IMG/VR virus record: IMGVR_UViG_3300030090_004264
Span: 1 to 41,870 of that record
DNA from: a virus
DNA length: 41,870 nt
Direction: 5' to 3' (one strand)
Each line of letters starts with the position of its first letter. Within the stretch, counting starts at the first letter, position 1. Below, one piece after another: positions 13,740 through 21,417 of this stretch. The notes below the pieces were generated by a model, which saw only the letters and a program-made list of their open reading frames with translations, had not been told where the DNA came from and did no database searches. Position numbers and translations under genes: made by a program.

Positions 13740-13954
13740 TGAGTTTTTATATCAGATTGGGTCCCCTATTCAAAAGTATTTTGTGGAGGTTGTGTATGTG
13801 CAAATCTTGACTTCATGTTGCATTATAAAGCAACCGCGCAACACAAGGGGGTGCTGGGGGGAGATTTTAGATGGTCGAGTTTCGGAAATTTTTGGGACTA
13901 CTAGATATAGTATGTAGAAGTATAGCGAGGCACAAGATTGTGTGGGCTGGGCAT
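13740..13954 (-). other. Leader region upstream of terL
   Basis: No convincing gene. In the leftward direction it holds a TATAAT (plus-strand 13822-13827) flanked by GTTGC/GCAAC arms that would form an 18-bp dyad over the -10 position. No good -35 is seen. The dyad might be an operator on a terL promoter. The distal part near terL is GGGGACCC-containing but does not match the spaced promoter family at 14.9-15.7 kb. Confidence 0.35.
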
Positions 13955-13988
13955 AAAAAAACCACCACCTGTAAGAACAGGTGGTGGT
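13955..13988 (-). terminator. Strong Rho-independent terminator between the 97-aa gene and terL
   Basis: Leftward RNA forms a 12-bp perfect stem (ACCACCACCTGT at 13961-13972 pairs with 13977-13988) with a 4-base loop, followed by seven U. It begins 14 bases after the 97-aa gene stop. This should isolate the two-gene unit 14003-14700 from terL and the structural operon. Confidence 0.9.
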
Positions 13989-14002
13989 CACAGGTGCTGA
14001 TG

Positions 14003-14296
14003 CTACTGGCTATTTATTAAACTGTTTAGTTTTTCAATAACCCTAGATGAAACATCAGTTTGTTGATTAGTTGGTTTATTAGCCAAGACTGAAACCAAAA
14101 CCCTAGCCAAGTCTTGCTTTGACATTTGGTTATTGGTTAGCCAAGTTAATAGAACACTCTCAAGAGTATTAGAATAAACCCAACCAAGCAAATCACTTTG
14201 CCAATTAACATTAGTGTTATCATTTTGATTATCCATTTCTGTATTAGCATTTTGAGTTGGTAGGTTTAAGAGTTGTAATAAATTGTCGTTTGGCAT
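14003..14296 (-). CDS. 97-aa Asn/Gln-rich protein, unknown
   Basis: Asn- and Gln-rich N-terminal third (about 1-35) followed by a helical part: DLLGWVYSNTLESVLLTWLT and SKQDLARVLVSVLANK. The start overlaps the stop of the 134-aa gene (shared base). The pair lies between the spaced promoter repeats and a strong terminator, thus forms its own transcription unit. No homologue recognised. Base composition is unremarkable for this genome. Confidence 0.6.
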   Translation of the reverse strand: MPNDNLLQLLNLPTQNANTEMDNQNDNTNVNWQSDLLGWVYSNTLESVLLTWLTNNQMSKQDLARVLVSVLANKPTNQQTDVSSRVIEKLNSLINSQ

Positions 14297-14700
14297 TACA
14301 ACACCACCTTATCTTGATAGTTTGGTATTAAGTTCATAACATTAGAACGCAAGATTGAGTCTTTGCATTTTTTCTGTTGCTTAATACTTGAGATTAAAGG
14401 CTTTGGTGTAAACACATTAATAGTCTGTTCACTACCAAACATTTCTTTCATTTGGTCATCAGTAAAACCAAACTTCTCTTTAATGAAAGTAGTCATCTTA
14501 CTTTGAGATAAACCACCTTGTCTTTTCTTATGGGAAAACTGAAACTCATCACCCAATAAGAAACCATGATACTTGCCACTCATAAAGGCAAGTTCTTTAC
14601 GACAGCTTTCCTGCCATTCCTTAACAAAAATAGATTTAAGAATTGACAACCTTGCGTAGTCATCAATCTTATTTCTATCTTCTTTACTTATATTCTGCAT
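14296..14700 (-). CDS. 134-aa protein, unknown
   Basis: A soluble, mostly helical protein: SKEDRNKIDDYARLSILKSI and FVKEWQESCRKELAFMSG, then KYHGFLLGDEFQFSHKKRQG and TTFIKEKFGFTDDQMKEMFG. The basic, Gln-rich C-terminus (ISSIKQQKKCKD) might touch nucleic acid. First gene after the triple promoter repeats 14.90-15.11 kb, hence likely the direct target of that promoter type. A second packaging-related factor or a regulator are both possible; I do not recognise it. Confidence 0.6.
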   Translation of the reverse strand: MQNISKEDRNKIDDYARLSILKSIFVKEWQESCRKELAFMSGKYHGFLLGDEFQFSHKKRQGGLSQSKMTTFIKEKFGFTDDQMKEMFGSEQTINVFTPKPLISSIKQQKKCKDSILRSNVMNLIPNYQDKVVL

Positions 14701-14890
14701 ATTAGCATTCTCTCTTTCTATACTATTTAAAGTATGTTTCCATTATGCATATATCCTAACTAATTGGAACATTTAAATATAAGAAAAAAATCTTTTCTGT
14801 GGATAACTTTTTTTTAAAAAACAAGTTGTGCGAAGCACCCAAAATTTTTTTTTCTTGGTTTATAAAAAAGTTTTCCGCGCTCGCGGCTTT
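14701..14890. other. AT-rich non-coding leader with DnaA box
   Basis: The 190 bases upstream of the 134-aa gene contain no supportable gene. They are very AT-rich (T and A tracts at 14780-14870) and include a perfect DnaA-type 9-mer and two short GC-rich hairpins: GTGC-GAA-GCAC near 14828-14838, and CCGCG-CT-CGCGG at 14876-14887. The second would be at the 5' end of RNA made from the nearest promoter repeat. Confidence 0.5.
14798..14806 (-). promoter_or_regulatory. Consensus DnaA box
   Basis: The plus strand reads TGTGGATAA, the reverse complement of TTATCCACA, a perfect match to the bacterial DnaA box, in an extremely AT-rich tract. A single site, so it may be an origin element, a host-factor regulatory site, or chance. 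Confidence 0.4.
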
Positions 14891-14898
14891 CTTCTCCT

Positions 14899-14942
14899 AT
14901 ATTATAAGCAAAGCAAAGCGTGGGGTCAGACCTCTCGGATTT
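14899..14942 (-). promoter_or_regulatory. Spaced phage promoter-like repeat, copy 1
   Basis: Leftward element: AAATCC (14937-14942), 9 bases, GACCCC (14922-14927), exactly 17 bases, TAATAT (14899-14904). A TATAAT also overlaps the -10 in this copy. A short GC-rich hairpin (CCGCG-AG-CGCGG) lies about 11 bases downstream. It faces the 134-aa gene. One of five copies. Confidence 0.7.
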
Positions 14943-14990
14943 ATAAAGGATCTTTGATTCAGGAAAACCTGGGCTGCGAGCTCCCACCTT

Positions 14991-15034
14991 ACATTATAAA
15001 AATGGCGAATCGTGGGGTCAAACCAAGAGGATTT
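14991..15034 (-). promoter_or_regulatory. Spaced phage promoter-like repeat, copy 2
   Basis: Leftward: AAATCC (15029-15034), 9 bases, GACCCC (15014-15019), 17 bases, TAATGT (14991-14996), with TATAAT overlapping. Lies 92 bp upstream of copy 1 in the transcription direction. Confidence 0.68.
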
Positions 15035-15068
15035 AACCCAACTCCCGCTCGCGCCGGGAAAGATCTTT

Positions 15069-15112
15069 ATATTAATAGATTTGATTGACCTGGGGTCTGA
15101 CCTCAGGGATTT
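15069..15112 (-). promoter_or_regulatory. Spaced phage promoter-like repeat, copy 3
   Basis: Leftward: AAATCC (15107-15112), 9 bases, GACCCC (15092-15097), 17 bases, TAATAT (15069-15074), then AAAGATCTTT and a GC-rich inverted segment. Lies 78 bp upstream of copy 2. Confidence 0.7.
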
Positions 15113-15241
15113 CCAAGGATTTGACAGCGTCCGCCGCCTCATTGCCTAAGTAGAACAGGCAAAACAAAACAAAGACTGTCACCGCCTGGGGCCTGCTAGC
15201 CCCAAGCAACCAAAAAATTGCAGTAAATAAAAAAGCTTGGA

Positions 15242-15472
15242 TCAGCATTCTCGTCCCACTATTCCATCCGCTATGGTCTGCCGGATTCCATGACCGTGCC
15301 AGGGCTCCTGTTCAACCCTGAAACAGATATCACCTGTGGCATGGTCCTCCCACAAACGCACCTTTATGCACCCTTCCCAACTGGCTGCAGTTGTTCCGAT
15401 GCTGTGATGGCCTCTGGCCGTGGGCACTGTTCTTCGTGCTGATTCGTTAATTGTTCCGTAAAATTTGCTCAT
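15242..15472 (-). CDS. 76-aa conserved marine-phage protein, unknown
   Basis: The product has GRAPH-like segments MSKFYGTINESARRT, TTAASWEGCIKVRLWED and FRVEQEPWHGHG. The AASW-GC-V and EPWHG signature is one I recall in small proteins from many marine phages, always unannotated. It lies directly downstream of promoter repeats 4 and 5 and is flanked by copy 3. Neighbours are packaging and nuclease genes, but this does not define a role. GC-richer than the surrounding DNA. Confidence 0.65.
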   Translation of the reverse strand: MSKFYGTINESARRTVPTARGHHSIGTTAASWEGCIKVRLWEDHATGDICFRVEQEPWHGHGIRQTIADGIVGREC

Positions 15473-15576
15473 TTTTCTACCTTTCTATGTATATATATAG
15501 TCCCAACATTACCCAATGTCAAGAGCTAATGTCCAGAAAAATTCTTGGATGACCGCGAGCGCCGGGGAACTTCTTT

Positions 15577-15621
15577 ATATTAACGAGCCGGCAAACAGTG
15601 GGGTCCAAATCCTAGGGATTT
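15577..15621 (-). promoter_or_regulatory. Spaced phage promoter-like repeat, copy 4
   Basis: Leftward: AAATCC (15616-15621), 10 bases, GACCCC (15600-15605), 17 bases, TAATAT (15577-15582), AAAG, then a GC-rich inverted segment (CCGGCGCTCGCGG). It points at the 76-aa gene and overlaps the stop of the upstream nuclease gene. Confidence 0.7.
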
Positions 15622-16133
15622 ATCTCGGATCTGCCTGGAGCTGCGGGCCCGGTGAACAACTTACCGTAACCAGCGTGCACCAACGTGGGGTCCAGCATCA
15701 GGGATTTTTGAATTTCGGTCCACGGTAAAGGATCATTGAAGCATGCCAGGTGAGCCTGGGACTTGTATCCATCCTTAACACAATCATGGACCACGTGTCC
15801 TGGAAAAATCTTAAGGGATCTCTTAGAGAGGCTTCTCACAAGTATATAATTGGGTATGTTATACTCAGATAGCTTGAGATTTATAGCAACTTGCACTGGA
15901 GACAGTCCAATCTTGTTAATCTTTGTACACTTCAATTCTGCCCAGAATGTACCAGGCAAACCCGTCTCTTCATGTTCATAAAGACCATATAAATCAGGTA
16001 AACCTGGTGTCGACCAAGAGTCTATTTTTAAGAAGTGTATTTTGTTACAATTTGATCTTAGTGTTGTAGTAAATCTACCTTCAGGTTTCCTCATCTGTTC
16101 CTTTAAATCTACCTTTCTCATCTCTGTTTCCAT
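15612..16133 (-). CDS. PD-(D/E)xK nuclease-like protein (VRR-NUC type)
   Basis: A 173-residue protein with a compact nuclease core at about 25-105: SWSTPGLPDLYGL with Asp47, then FWAELKC with Glu66 and Lys68, and SPVQVAINLKL with Gln81. The G-x-PD...E-x-K...Q pattern is that of VRR-NUC/Holliday-junction-resolvase-like restriction folds. The C-terminal 60 residues run through promoter repeat copy 5 and end at copy 4, so this tail may be partly repeat-derived. It overlaps the 126-aa nuclease gene by 53 bases. Role may be packaging or recombination branch cleavage. Confidence 0.7.
   Translation of the reverse strand: METEMRKVDLKEQMRKPEGRFTTTLRSNCNKIHFLKIDSWSTPGLPDLYGLYEHEETGLPGTFWAELKCTKINKIGLSPVQVAINLKLSEYNIPNYILVRSLSKRSLKIFPGHVVHDCVKDGYKSQAHLACFNDPLPWTEIQKSLMLDPTLVHAGYGKLFTGPAAPGRSEINP
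15664..15707 (-). promoter_or_regulatory. Spaced promoter-like repeat, copy 5 (degenerate -10)
   Basis: Leftward: AAATCC (15702-15707), 9 bases, GACCCC (15687-15692), 17 bases, then TTACGG instead of TAATAT. It lies inside the nuclease coding sequence, 87 bp upstream of copy 4. A CGGGCCCG palindrome follows. The -10 is probably inactive or weak. Confidence 0.5.
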
Positions 16134-18817: not shown

Positions 18818-19009
18818 TCAGTGTTTCGTGATCCGTGCGTCGTCTTCCTTAATCATCTCTTTCAACCAGTCCGGAGCCTGCTTTCGTATTGCTACTTCTA
18901 TTAAATTTTTTAGTTTCATTTTTTCTATTTCATCTCCGTTCGTGGCTTTATCTACCCTGTCCGATCGTAGAAATTTTTCTATCGTCTCGTTGATTTCTTT
19001 TTTAGTCAT
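18818..19009 (-). CDS. 63-aa helical protein, unknown
   Basis: All-helical by pattern: KEINETIEKFLRSDRVDKA, EKMKLKNLIEVAIRKQA, DWLKEMIKEDDARITKH. AAAGG lies about 8 bases before the ATG. Between the 47-aa and 43-aa genes on the minus strand. No family recognised. Confidence 0.55.
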   Translation of the reverse strand: MTKKEINETIEKFLRSDRVDKATNGDEIEKMKLKNLIEVAIRKQAPDWLKEMIKEDDARITKH

Positions 19010-19132
19010 TGTGCTACCTTTCTTTATGATGTCTCTCCATCAGTCACACCACATACCTGTGTTACGAGGCTACAGACCAGGTGTCGACCCTTTGGATTAG
19101 GGTGGGATTGATAATCCGATGACAAGACTATC

Positions 19133-19276
19133 TCACTTCACACTCTTTTCCAAACTTTTTATATATTTTTCTAACGCAAGAACCGCCTCGGTCACATTGC
19201 TGTGAGCGATATCTTTCGTTATGTAGTCCTTGACAATTTGCATTGCCTGGCTACCGGTCATGAGCATTTTGAACAT
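19133..19276 (-). CDS. 47-aa helical microprotein
   Basis: AAAGGAGAG lies 6 bases before the ATG. The product starts MFKMLMTGSQAMQIVKDYIT and finishes with an amphipathic helix (TEAVLALEKYIKSLEKS). It is the first gene after the pentanucleotide array in the leftward direction, so its mRNA would carry the array as 5' untranslated sequence. Unknown role. Confidence 0.6.
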   Translation of the reverse strand: MFKMLMTGSQAMQIVKDYITKDIAHSNVTEAVLALEKYIKSLEKSVK

Positions 19277-19285
19277 GTTCTCTCC

Positions 19286-19689
19286 TTTCCGGCCTCGCCA
19301 ATCCACGCCTCACAACACCATACCCCAATCTACCGCAATCGTAACCCAACGAACCACAACTCGCCACACCTGCCAAAATAAGCCTCTCCTCGCCATCTAC
19401 ATCCACTGCTCACCTGAACGCACCTCACCCCGCCCGCCTTACCTAACCCGTCCGGATCATAACAAACCTGGGCATACCTGGCCTGCCATAAAAATACCAC
19501 TCCTGAACTAAGCTCACCTCAACGTAACTCACCTAACCTCGCCTGCCTTGACACAACTTGCTACCACCAGAACGTACCCGACCTCACCACGCCTGCCGCA
19601 ACAAAACCGACCATACCTCGCTCAAACTTACCACGCCTGCCTCAACGCTCCACAACGCACCTTACCCCGCAATACCTGACCGTACCTGC
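19286..19689. repeat. Degenerate pentanucleotide repeat array (NACCN plus / NNGGT minus), about 400 bp
   Basis: The 400 bases between the 74-aa and 47-aa genes have no gene. The plus strand is nearly free of runs of G and consists of 5-base units of the type N-A-C-C-N with frequent NAACN and NGCCN variants; at 19515-19529 three successive units are CACCT, CAACG, TAACT. The phase holds for long stretches with occasional one-base slips. On the leftward transcript it reads as GGU triplets spaced by two bases. It begins at the 74-aa stop codon and ends just before the ribosome site of the 47-aa gene. Confidence 0.8.
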
Positions 19690-19914
19690 CTAAACAGGTT
19701 CCGGGTCGTCATGCTCTAAATCATCAACGGTAGCGAGCACGTCCTCTATCTGTAATATAATAGAACCCATCTCATCTACATCGTCTTTAGTTACATGACG
19801 TATCCCTTTAGATCTAGTGGCATTGTTCATAGCTATCAAAGCGTCTTCAAGTAAGCCGTAAAGTTCTCTGACTTCATCTACCCACTCTTGATAAAACACA
19901 TCACTACTTGCCAT
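19690..19914 (-). CDS. 74-aa acidic protein, unknown
   Basis: AAGGAGA stands 8 bases before the ATG. Helical and acidic: FYQEWVDEVRELYGLLEDAL, TKDDVDEMGSIILQIEDVLA, ending DLEHDDPEPV. Starts directly after the 30-aa gene stop and ends where the pentanucleotide array begins. No domain recognised; an early host-directed protein is plausible from operon position. Confidence 0.65.
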   Translation of the reverse strand: MASSDVFYQEWVDEVRELYGLLEDALIAMNNATRSKGIRHVTKDDVDEMGSIILQIEDVLATVDDLEHDDPEPV

Positions 19915-20007
19915 TTAATCTCCTTTCCTTATATACAATGGAACTCTAATCCATCCTTTTTTCTCTAACAATATTTTTATTATATGGTTATAATTATATT
20001 TTTTCAT
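19915..20007 (-). CDS. 30-aa basic microprotein
   Basis: Strong AAAGGAG 6 bases before the ATG. The product begins MKKYNYNHIIKILLEKKGWI and ends RVPLYIRKGD. The stop abuts the ATG of the 74-aa gene, and its last codons contain that gene's ribosome site, an arrangement typical of translational coupling. Its main purpose may be that coupling. Confidence 0.5.
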   Translation of the reverse strand: MKKYNYNHIIKILLEKKGWIRVPLYIRKGD

Positions 20008-20579: not shown

Positions 20580-21198
20580 CTTTAACCTCCTTCTTTCTTT
20601 CGATCTTTGTTACGTTGGTTACTTTAAACATACCAAAGTTACCATTCTTTTGCGGTCTCCATTCTCCGACACCAGATGCAAACCCCGCTACATTAAACAC
20701 GTTGATCAACTGTTCAATTGACCAGGCATTAGCATTGTATCGAACAGGAACGTCTGCCTGCCATTCTGTAAACTCACCTCTATATCTGAGGTCAGCTGCA
20801 CCCATACCAACACGCACCATGTCTTCTCTCATCACAGGCTTACCTTGAATCTTAATTAAGTCACATGGAATGTGGAATGATCCACGAGCTGAGACTTTTG
20901 TAAGACCCTCAATGTGAGAGCAAGCGTTAACAGCTGCTGCCTTAAACGCAATAGCAGGGAAGCCATAGTCTTTACCGTTCGGCATCTGATATAAAGAATC
21001 TCTAAAACATTTTTCAGGATCCTTTGCTTCTCTACCAGCAGCTTTAGCTATCTTCATCTGCTTATCTCTTATTTCTTGTTTAGCCTTCTCAGACCATTTG
21101 TTACATATCAAAGGTGAGTCACCTTTTAATGTTATAATACAGTCCTGTAATACTACGCCTGGGACTGTGATGTTATCAGGCTCTTTTTTCTTGGTCAT
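20572..21198 (-). CDS. 208-aa conserved phage protein, possible RAMP-like fold
   Basis: Recurrent family features: LKGDSPLICNKWSEKAKQEI near the N-terminus, AKDPEKCFRDSLY, YGFPAIAFKAAAVNAC, then VSARGSFHIPC, MRYRG-like DLRYRGEFTEW and the end GVGEWRPQKNGNFGMFKV. The G-x-G-E-x-R-P-x-K..G-x-F end loosely resembles Cas7/RAMP-type folds, but this is an impression, not a match. It overlaps the upstream RHH gene by 23 bases. Early expression is implied by the promoter at 21.5 kb. No catalytic residues seen. Confidence 0.65.
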   Translation of the reverse strand: MTKKKEPDNITVPGVVLQDCIITLKGDSPLICNKWSEKAKQEIRDKQMKIAKAAGREAKDPEKCFRDSLYQMPNGKDYGFPAIAFKAAAVNACSHIEGLTKVSARGSFHIPCDLIKIQGKPVMREDMVRVGMGAADLRYRGEFTEWQADVPVRYNANAWSIEQLINVFNVAGFASGVGEWRPQKNGNFGMFKVTNVTKIERKKEVKVA

Positions 21199-21352
21199 TT
21201 TTATTACCTCTTATTCTTTCTTCTGATTCTTTATCAACCAGATATTCTATGAAACCAGCAACAGATCTGTAATCTCGATCGGCCATGGTCTTTAGTTTTT
21301 TGTAGCTTTCTTTCTTGATAGCCACAGACTTATATCTTGATACATCTGTCAT
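21176..21352 (-). CDS. Ribbon-helix-helix-like regulator (58 aa)
   Basis: I chose the ATG at 21352 because it overlaps the stop of a 21-codon gene as TAATG; the product then begins MTDVSRYKSVAIKKESYKKL and continues KTMADRDYRSVAGFIEYLVD. A basic strand (SRYKSVAIK), then two short helices with a turn (MADRDYRSVAGFIE) is the Arc/CopG pattern. It could repress its own operon, or act at the palindromes near 17.0-17.1 kb; both are inferred. A longer in-frame start exists at 21397 but would overlap the upstream small genes. Confidence 0.6.
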   Translation of the reverse strand: MTDVSRYKSVAIKKESYKKLKTMADRDYRSVAGFIEYLVDKESEERIRGNKNDQEKRA

Positions 21353-21417
21353 TACACCCACCCTAAGTGATGAACGAGCATAATGGCTATAATGCATCCT
21401 ATGATTATACTAATCAT
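21352..21417 (-). CDS. 21-aa transmembrane microprotein
   Basis: The ATG overlaps the upstream stop as ATGA and the stop overlaps the next ATG as TAATG, so this tiny frame is locked between two coupled genes. The product, MISIIIGCIIAIMLVHHLGW plus a final Val, is a single hydrophobic helix. It resembles other short phage or toxin membrane peptides in nature only. Whether it is biologically expressed can only be inferred from the coupling and from the strong promoter upstream. Confidence 0.5.
   Translation of the reverse strand: MISIIIGCIIAIMLVHHLGWV

Follow-up and report, generated by a model that had tools for sequence, protein, structure and literature searches.

The CII-type activator promoters and the Q-dependent late promoters of phage lambda offer two features relevant here, repeated boxes around the -35 position and a terminator between promoter and late genes. 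The middle and late promoters of phages phiEco32 and 7-11 are served by phage sigma factors gp36 and gp47, the consensus being tAATGTAtA in phiEco32 and a bipartite GTAAtg-16-aCTA at corresponding genome positions in the related phage 7-11 (PMC8948821). In T4 middle promoters, a MotA box replaces the -35 element and AsiA remodels region 4 of sigma (PMC7403470).

The locus described here resembles each of these systems and departs from each. As in phiEco32 and 7-11, its elements would be phage-specific promoters for the host core RNA polymerase whose specificity is switched between relatives, and tAATGTAtA resembles the TAATRTAR core found here; those phages, however, encode a sigma homologue and have their promoters at positions throughout the genome, whereas here a tandem array occupies a single locus and no sigma factor is recognisable. 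As in T4, a phage box would stand at the -35 position above a sigma70-like -10; unlike T4, there are two boxes rather than one and the copies are arrayed in tandem at a single place. Comparing a set of small proteins with Pfam and PHROG brought up no MotA or AsiA homologue, regulators of a kind that diverges fast. A terminator separates the array from the late genes as at lambda Q-dependent promoters (in type A only, see below), but there are 3-6 tandem copies, the boxes change between sister lineages, and neither CII nor Q homologues were found, Q-type antiterminators, which are diverse, giving no family match among the small proteins. Phage-specific promoters are an already known kind of element, and the array would be a variant of it rather than a new category; a literature search on tandem or lineage-specific phage promoters, of partial coverage and with narrow terms, returned no paper.

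Among the closest cultured relatives by terL (61-66%) are the Pelagibacter phages HTVC027P and HTVC023P, which share the same neighbourhood of terS, nuclease-like gene and terL; an array of this type was not found in them, only other repeats, and the HTVC027P transcriptome paper does not mention promoters (PMC12753301). Almost nothing is known of how the abundant uncultured relatives of pelagiphages regulate their genes, and the array provides a compact, testable promoter signature.

The window, that is, the whole stretch of DNA analysed, is a 41,870-bp IMG/VR virus record from a marine phage. The array spans positions 14,899-15,707 and points leftward at the genes of a 134-aa and a 97-aa protein, followed by an intrinsic terminator, terL, the portal gene and head genes. 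The features of the region are the following:

15612..16133, minus strand: nuclease-like ORF, VRR-NUC/PDDEXK-like by eye
15664..15707, minus strand: copy 1, AAATCC at 15707-15702, GACCCC at 15692-15687, degenerate -10 GGTTACGGTAAG
15577..15621, minus strand: copy 2, AAATCC, N10, GACCCC at 15605-15600, N17, TAATAT at 15582-15577
15494..15522, minus strand: predicted host-type promoter of a 76-aa gene, TTGACA, 17 bp, TATATA, read directly from the sequence
15069..15112, minus strand: copy 3, AAATCC, N9, GACCCC at 15097-15092, N17, TAATAT at 15074-15069
14991..15034, minus strand: copy 4, AAATCC, N9, GACCCC at 15019-15014, N17, TAATGT
14899..14942, minus strand: copy 5, AAATCC, N9, GACCCC at 14927-14922, N17, TAATAT
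14740..14890, minus strand: leader after the array, with an A/T-tract, a small hairpin, a DnaA-box sequence, an AT-rich stretch and a weak sigma70-like site
14296..14700, minus strand: gene of the 134-aa protein, which is basic (pI 9.4) and matches no known family
14003..14296, minus strand: gene of the 97-aa protein, acidic, pI 4.3, second gene of the unit
13960..13989, minus strand: intrinsic terminator, 13-bp stem, 4-nt loop and T run, between the 97-aa gene and terL

The first-pass annotation had described five leftward AAATCC/GACCCC elements with a gap of 9-10 bp, and all of them are present. A search of the whole window for AAATCC-N8..11-GACCCC finds the exact pattern five times, always on the minus strand (14922-14942, 15014-15034, 15092-15112, 15600-15621 and 15687-15707), compared with 0 matches in 100 dinucleotide-preserving shuffles; the gap measures 10 bp in copy 2 and 9 bp in each of the others, and the record holds no further exact copy of the module. 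The accompanying description of a -10-like box at an invariant 17 bp, degenerate in one copy, holds too: in four copies GACCCC-N17-TAATRT occurs with 0 mismatches (starts at 14899, 14991, 15069 and 15577), and copy 1 has no usable -10. The two leftmost copies can also be read as TATAAT 17 bp from NNGACC, copy 4 being the array's best sigma70 match (TTGACC-17-TATAAT, 11/12) and copy 5 also reaching 10/12 (CTGACC-17-TATAAT). The TAATRT register of the first-pass annotation is the more general one, because the core conserved across relatives is TARTRTAR at +17.

Scanning IMG/VR with the full pattern returned 28 contigs, about 21 of them with arrays, six sharing one unrelated match and one (L009) having a single match. 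A second scan, with the 134-aa protein as query, returned 23 contigs (24 loci, two of which are halves of one contig) and added four that were absent from earlier scans; overall, about 27 IMG/VR contigs besides this record carry the module. The single-copy matches in L007/8/18/22/27/29 and L345/347/354/355 were set aside as unrelated matches rather than arrays. Every contig with the 134-aa gene carries 3-6 copies directly upstream of it on one strand, the last copy sitting 237-308 bp before the ATG of that gene in these contigs, here called type A. The suggestion that the module is phage-specific is borne out by this recurrence at one place and by the 257 Gb of bacterial and archaeal genomes scanned, which hold only 8 scattered single matches; no array of the repeated motif occurs in any sampled bacterial genome. 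The further expectation of a promoter class spread over the genome did not survive, as the record and its larger relatives, whole genomes and large contigs included, have the motif at this locus only, in one array.

The strongest evidence for a promoter reading is the fixed spacing of the putative -10. Among 64 distinct type-A copies, which do not amount to 64 independent events since several contigs may be near-copies of one population, TARTRTA lies at exactly +17 in 51 and at +16 in 3, against a background of 1 per 5,120 positions elsewhere in the same stretches. Information content over 53 distinct cores peaks at AAATCCCTGA, GACCCC, TAATATAR and a downstream GC-rich stretch, the spacer and outer flanks being only weakly conserved. 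The segment after the -10 has a GC content of 73%, compared with about 39% for the genome; a conserved RNA hairpin after the start site was considered and rejected, since the segment folds no better than its shuffles (mean z about 0), and Rfam and tRNA searches gave no match.

The array is also found in sister groups, with other boxes. In type B, represented by G001 (terL 92% identical) and also by L157, L195 and L209, the same place is occupied by AAAATCCGAAG-N-GTCTCCCC-N15-TATAATA, and G001 has no GACCCC motif. In type C, the L053-type viruses (terL 70% identical; also L267, L277, L290, L303, L308 and L323), the array reads AAAATACGCTGA-N-TTCGCC-N16-TATAGAT, the -10 assignment of TATAGAT being less certain. 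The type-C viruses carry 3-4 copies each. Layout, copy number, strand and -10 are common to the groups; both boxes vary by group and agree within each genome, from which we infer one reading factor for both, differing by lineage. The hexamer at the -35 position in types B and C is GTCTCC or TTTCGC, and host -35 recognition is therefore not what is conserved. A host factor is an unlikely reader, since none of the sampled bacterial genomes contains the motif as a repeat. The explanation that best fits the parallel change of the boxes is a factor specific to the phage lineage, either an activator or a sigma-like protein, that would replace host -35 recognition. The change thereby supports the earlier proposal of a phage activator or alternative sigma, which is now the likely reader. 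More broadly, the same layout with a different signal in close relatives suggests a virus-made transcription factor changing together with its target sites. A matched series of box changes would allow co-variation to find that factor and would give orthogonal promoter-factor pairs.

The preferred reading, to which we assign a probability of roughly 0.6, is a tandem array of phage-specific promoters for the host RNA polymerase, with boxes read by a phage-lineage-specific factor. The TAATRTAR/TATAAT box would act as the -10, and GACCCC, with AAATCC about 15 bp further upstream, would replace the host -35 and be bound by a DNA-binding factor particular to the phage lineage. That factor would most likely be an activator taking the place of, or supplementing, the contacts made by sigma region 4; a phage sigma is less likely. 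Transcription from every copy would run leftward into the 134-aa/97-aa unit that lies just before terL, and read-through or antitermination might extend it into the long late operon. Copy number would grow through tandem duplication, and both boxes would change together when the reading factor changes. What the data show directly is the sequence, copy number, strand, fixed spacing and phage specificity of the module and the parallel change of its boxes in sister groups; from these we infer promoter function, reading by a phage protein, the identity of that protein and the timing. Against the preferred reading stand the absence of any recognisable sigma or activator and the conserved terminator, which argues against simple late-operon promoters.

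It is tempting to go further and to regard the array as a cassette in which both boxes switch together from one sister phage to another, with geometry and -10 fixed, driven by co-change with a phage transcription factor of a kind not yet described. That factor might be the 134-aa protein, working together with the 97-aa protein on host RNA polymerase and exerting positive feedback on its own unit; we put all of this forward only tentatively. The 134-aa protein is a candidate reader for type A only: it is encoded in every type-A genome that covers the stretch and is absent from the type-B sister G001, and for that reason it cannot be the shared regulator. It matches no family and no convincing solved relative, its AlphaFold model (pLDDT 51) is of low confidence and too poor for a fold search, and the co-variation screen for a regulator gave no obvious type-B-specific replacement. 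The 97-aa protein has a 45% homologue in the type-B sister, and a small ORF occupies the same place in type C.

Other candidate readers were sought among known families. Sigma region 2 (PF04542) had no match in seven genomes, 11 of 14 control genomes being positive, and a weak match to sigma region 4 (PF08281) proved to be the TerS helix-turn-helix rather than a phage sigma. For a T7-type RNA polymerase, PF00940 gave no match, with controls equally silent, and no polymerase was found among the large proteins scanned. A small Arc-like ribbon-helix-helix protein is encoded at 21176-21397 on the minus strand (PHROG 3180, E 5e-4), behind a consensus sigma70 promoter at 21.5 kb. It was rejected as the reader because types A and B and also L079 share its putative DNA-contacting strand, KSVA, which so fails to follow the box change. 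A side observation concerns G003 (contig L123, 13701-14070), in which the 134-aa gene is split into two frames with residues 73-87 lost, which may be a real loss or an artefact of assembly.

Recognition by the host machinery alone is a possibility, given how many copies lie near the sigma70 consensus. In that case the copies would be ordinary sigma70 promoters with a good -10 and an imperfect -35 (NNGACC), and the flanking repeats would be leftovers of tandem duplication, with no phage factor involved. The 11/12 and 10/12 matches of copies 4 and 5 and the failure to find a phage sigma or known activator speak for it. Nonetheless, we consider it unlikely: the two bases preceding GACC, where this reading calls for TT, are far less conserved in type A than AAATCC and GACCCC, the initial TA of TATAAT is missing from many type-A copies, and types B and C hold GTCTCC or TTTCGC at -35 yet conserve both boxes. 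A -10 near TATAAT is present in most type-A copies, counting TATAAT itself in two copies of the window, but a -35 near TTGACA is not, GAC alone being constant in type A and essentially nothing in types B and C. The earlier description of a sigma70-like geometry, a strong -10 at 17 bp with a non-host box at the -35 position, fits these data.

The relation of the array to late genes is less direct. G001 (58 kb) has a same-strand run of about 39 kb from the array to a lysozyme homologue, which places the array at the head of the late region. Its place before terL makes a "late" class plausible for the array, but a strong, conserved terminator separates the array's unit from terL, and supply of the late genes would therefore need read-through or antitermination. 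The array would directly serve the 134-aa and 97-aa genes, and possibly the late operon as well. One way around the terminator would be late promoters with built-in antiterminator loading, by lambda Q/qut logic, the boxes recruiting a phage protein to RNA polymerase that then passes the terminator before terL. The layout agrees with this, the promoter array being followed by two small genes, the conserved terminator, terL and then the long same-strand late operon, as does the terminator of type A, whose structure is kept despite sequence change (window versus L033 and L378). Even so, this explanation appears quite doubtful, considering that a Q-like protein was not found among the small proteins, that the hairpin at the terminator site lacks a T run in types B and C, and that conserved, possibly promoter-bearing DNA also lies between the terminator and terL. 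The pairing of the two rightmost copies with the 76-aa gene, proposed in the first-pass annotation, has to be dropped: this gene, located between copies 2 and 3, does not account for the array, because it has its own promoter-like TTGACA-17-TATATA and is missing from several array-bearing genomes.

Origins opened by promoters are known from the T7 primary origin and T4 oriF/oriG. A replication origin of this kind, in which tandem promoters open the adjacent AT-rich, DnaA-box DNA, or a packaging site with TerS-binding repeats is very improbable here, even though the repeats lie between terS and terL and most type-A genomes have TTATCCACA or its reverse complement near A/T tracts, 106-116 bp upstream of the ATG of the 134-aa gene, since the DnaA box is missing from type B and some type-A genomes, packaging or iteron repeats are not expected to hold a TATA box at exactly +17, and the block conserved between types sits directly before terL instead.

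In the window, the DnaA-box sequence is at 14798-14806 on the minus strand, beside A/T tracts. The leader also holds a weak conserved sigma70-like site before the 134-aa gene, TTCCAA-16-CATAAT at 14769-14742, a putative promoter read by eye from the alignment. Types A and B share the conserved noncoding block immediately ahead of terL, at about 13740-13915 on the minus strand (ACTATATCTAGTAGTCCCA; AAGTTTTGCACATACACAACC; GGGGACCCAAT); the block is partly kept in distant relatives (TTTTRCACAWAC) and is a candidate cos/pac site or late promoter.

Copy 1 is of separate interest. In most relatives a homologue of the nuclease-like ORF lies upstream of terL; the ORF itself gave no database match, and the array starts inside its 3' end. 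In the window, copy 1 (15664-15692) overlaps its C-terminal codons, and GGTTACGG stands where the -10 would be expected, in a region that encodes Gly-Tyr-Gly-Lys. In L006, L010 and L031, the -10 of copy 1 is perfect (TATAATATAAG), and in L006 the stop of the nuclease ORF falls a few bases upstream of it. This pattern fits a promoter box that is kept or gained only where coding permits, because the -10 is perfect where the ORF ends early and degenerate where coding continues through it.

Repeats of other kinds were noted between terS and terL in two phages: 33- to 58-nt repeats (CAAATCTTGAGAATACATACCGAAAATTTTTTG and relatives) in the cultured pelagiphage HTVC023P (L115, 3236-3334 and 5685-5856), not of the array type, and five GC-rich repeats with GGGCCCACCC in phage 023Pt_psg01 (L113, 5386-7824), without an obvious -10 box. 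Elsewhere in the window, positions 19300-19690, between small leftward ORFs, are strongly C-rich and apparently noncoding (GC skew -0.40 for 19001-20000) and are full of CCTGCC/CACCTC-like words.
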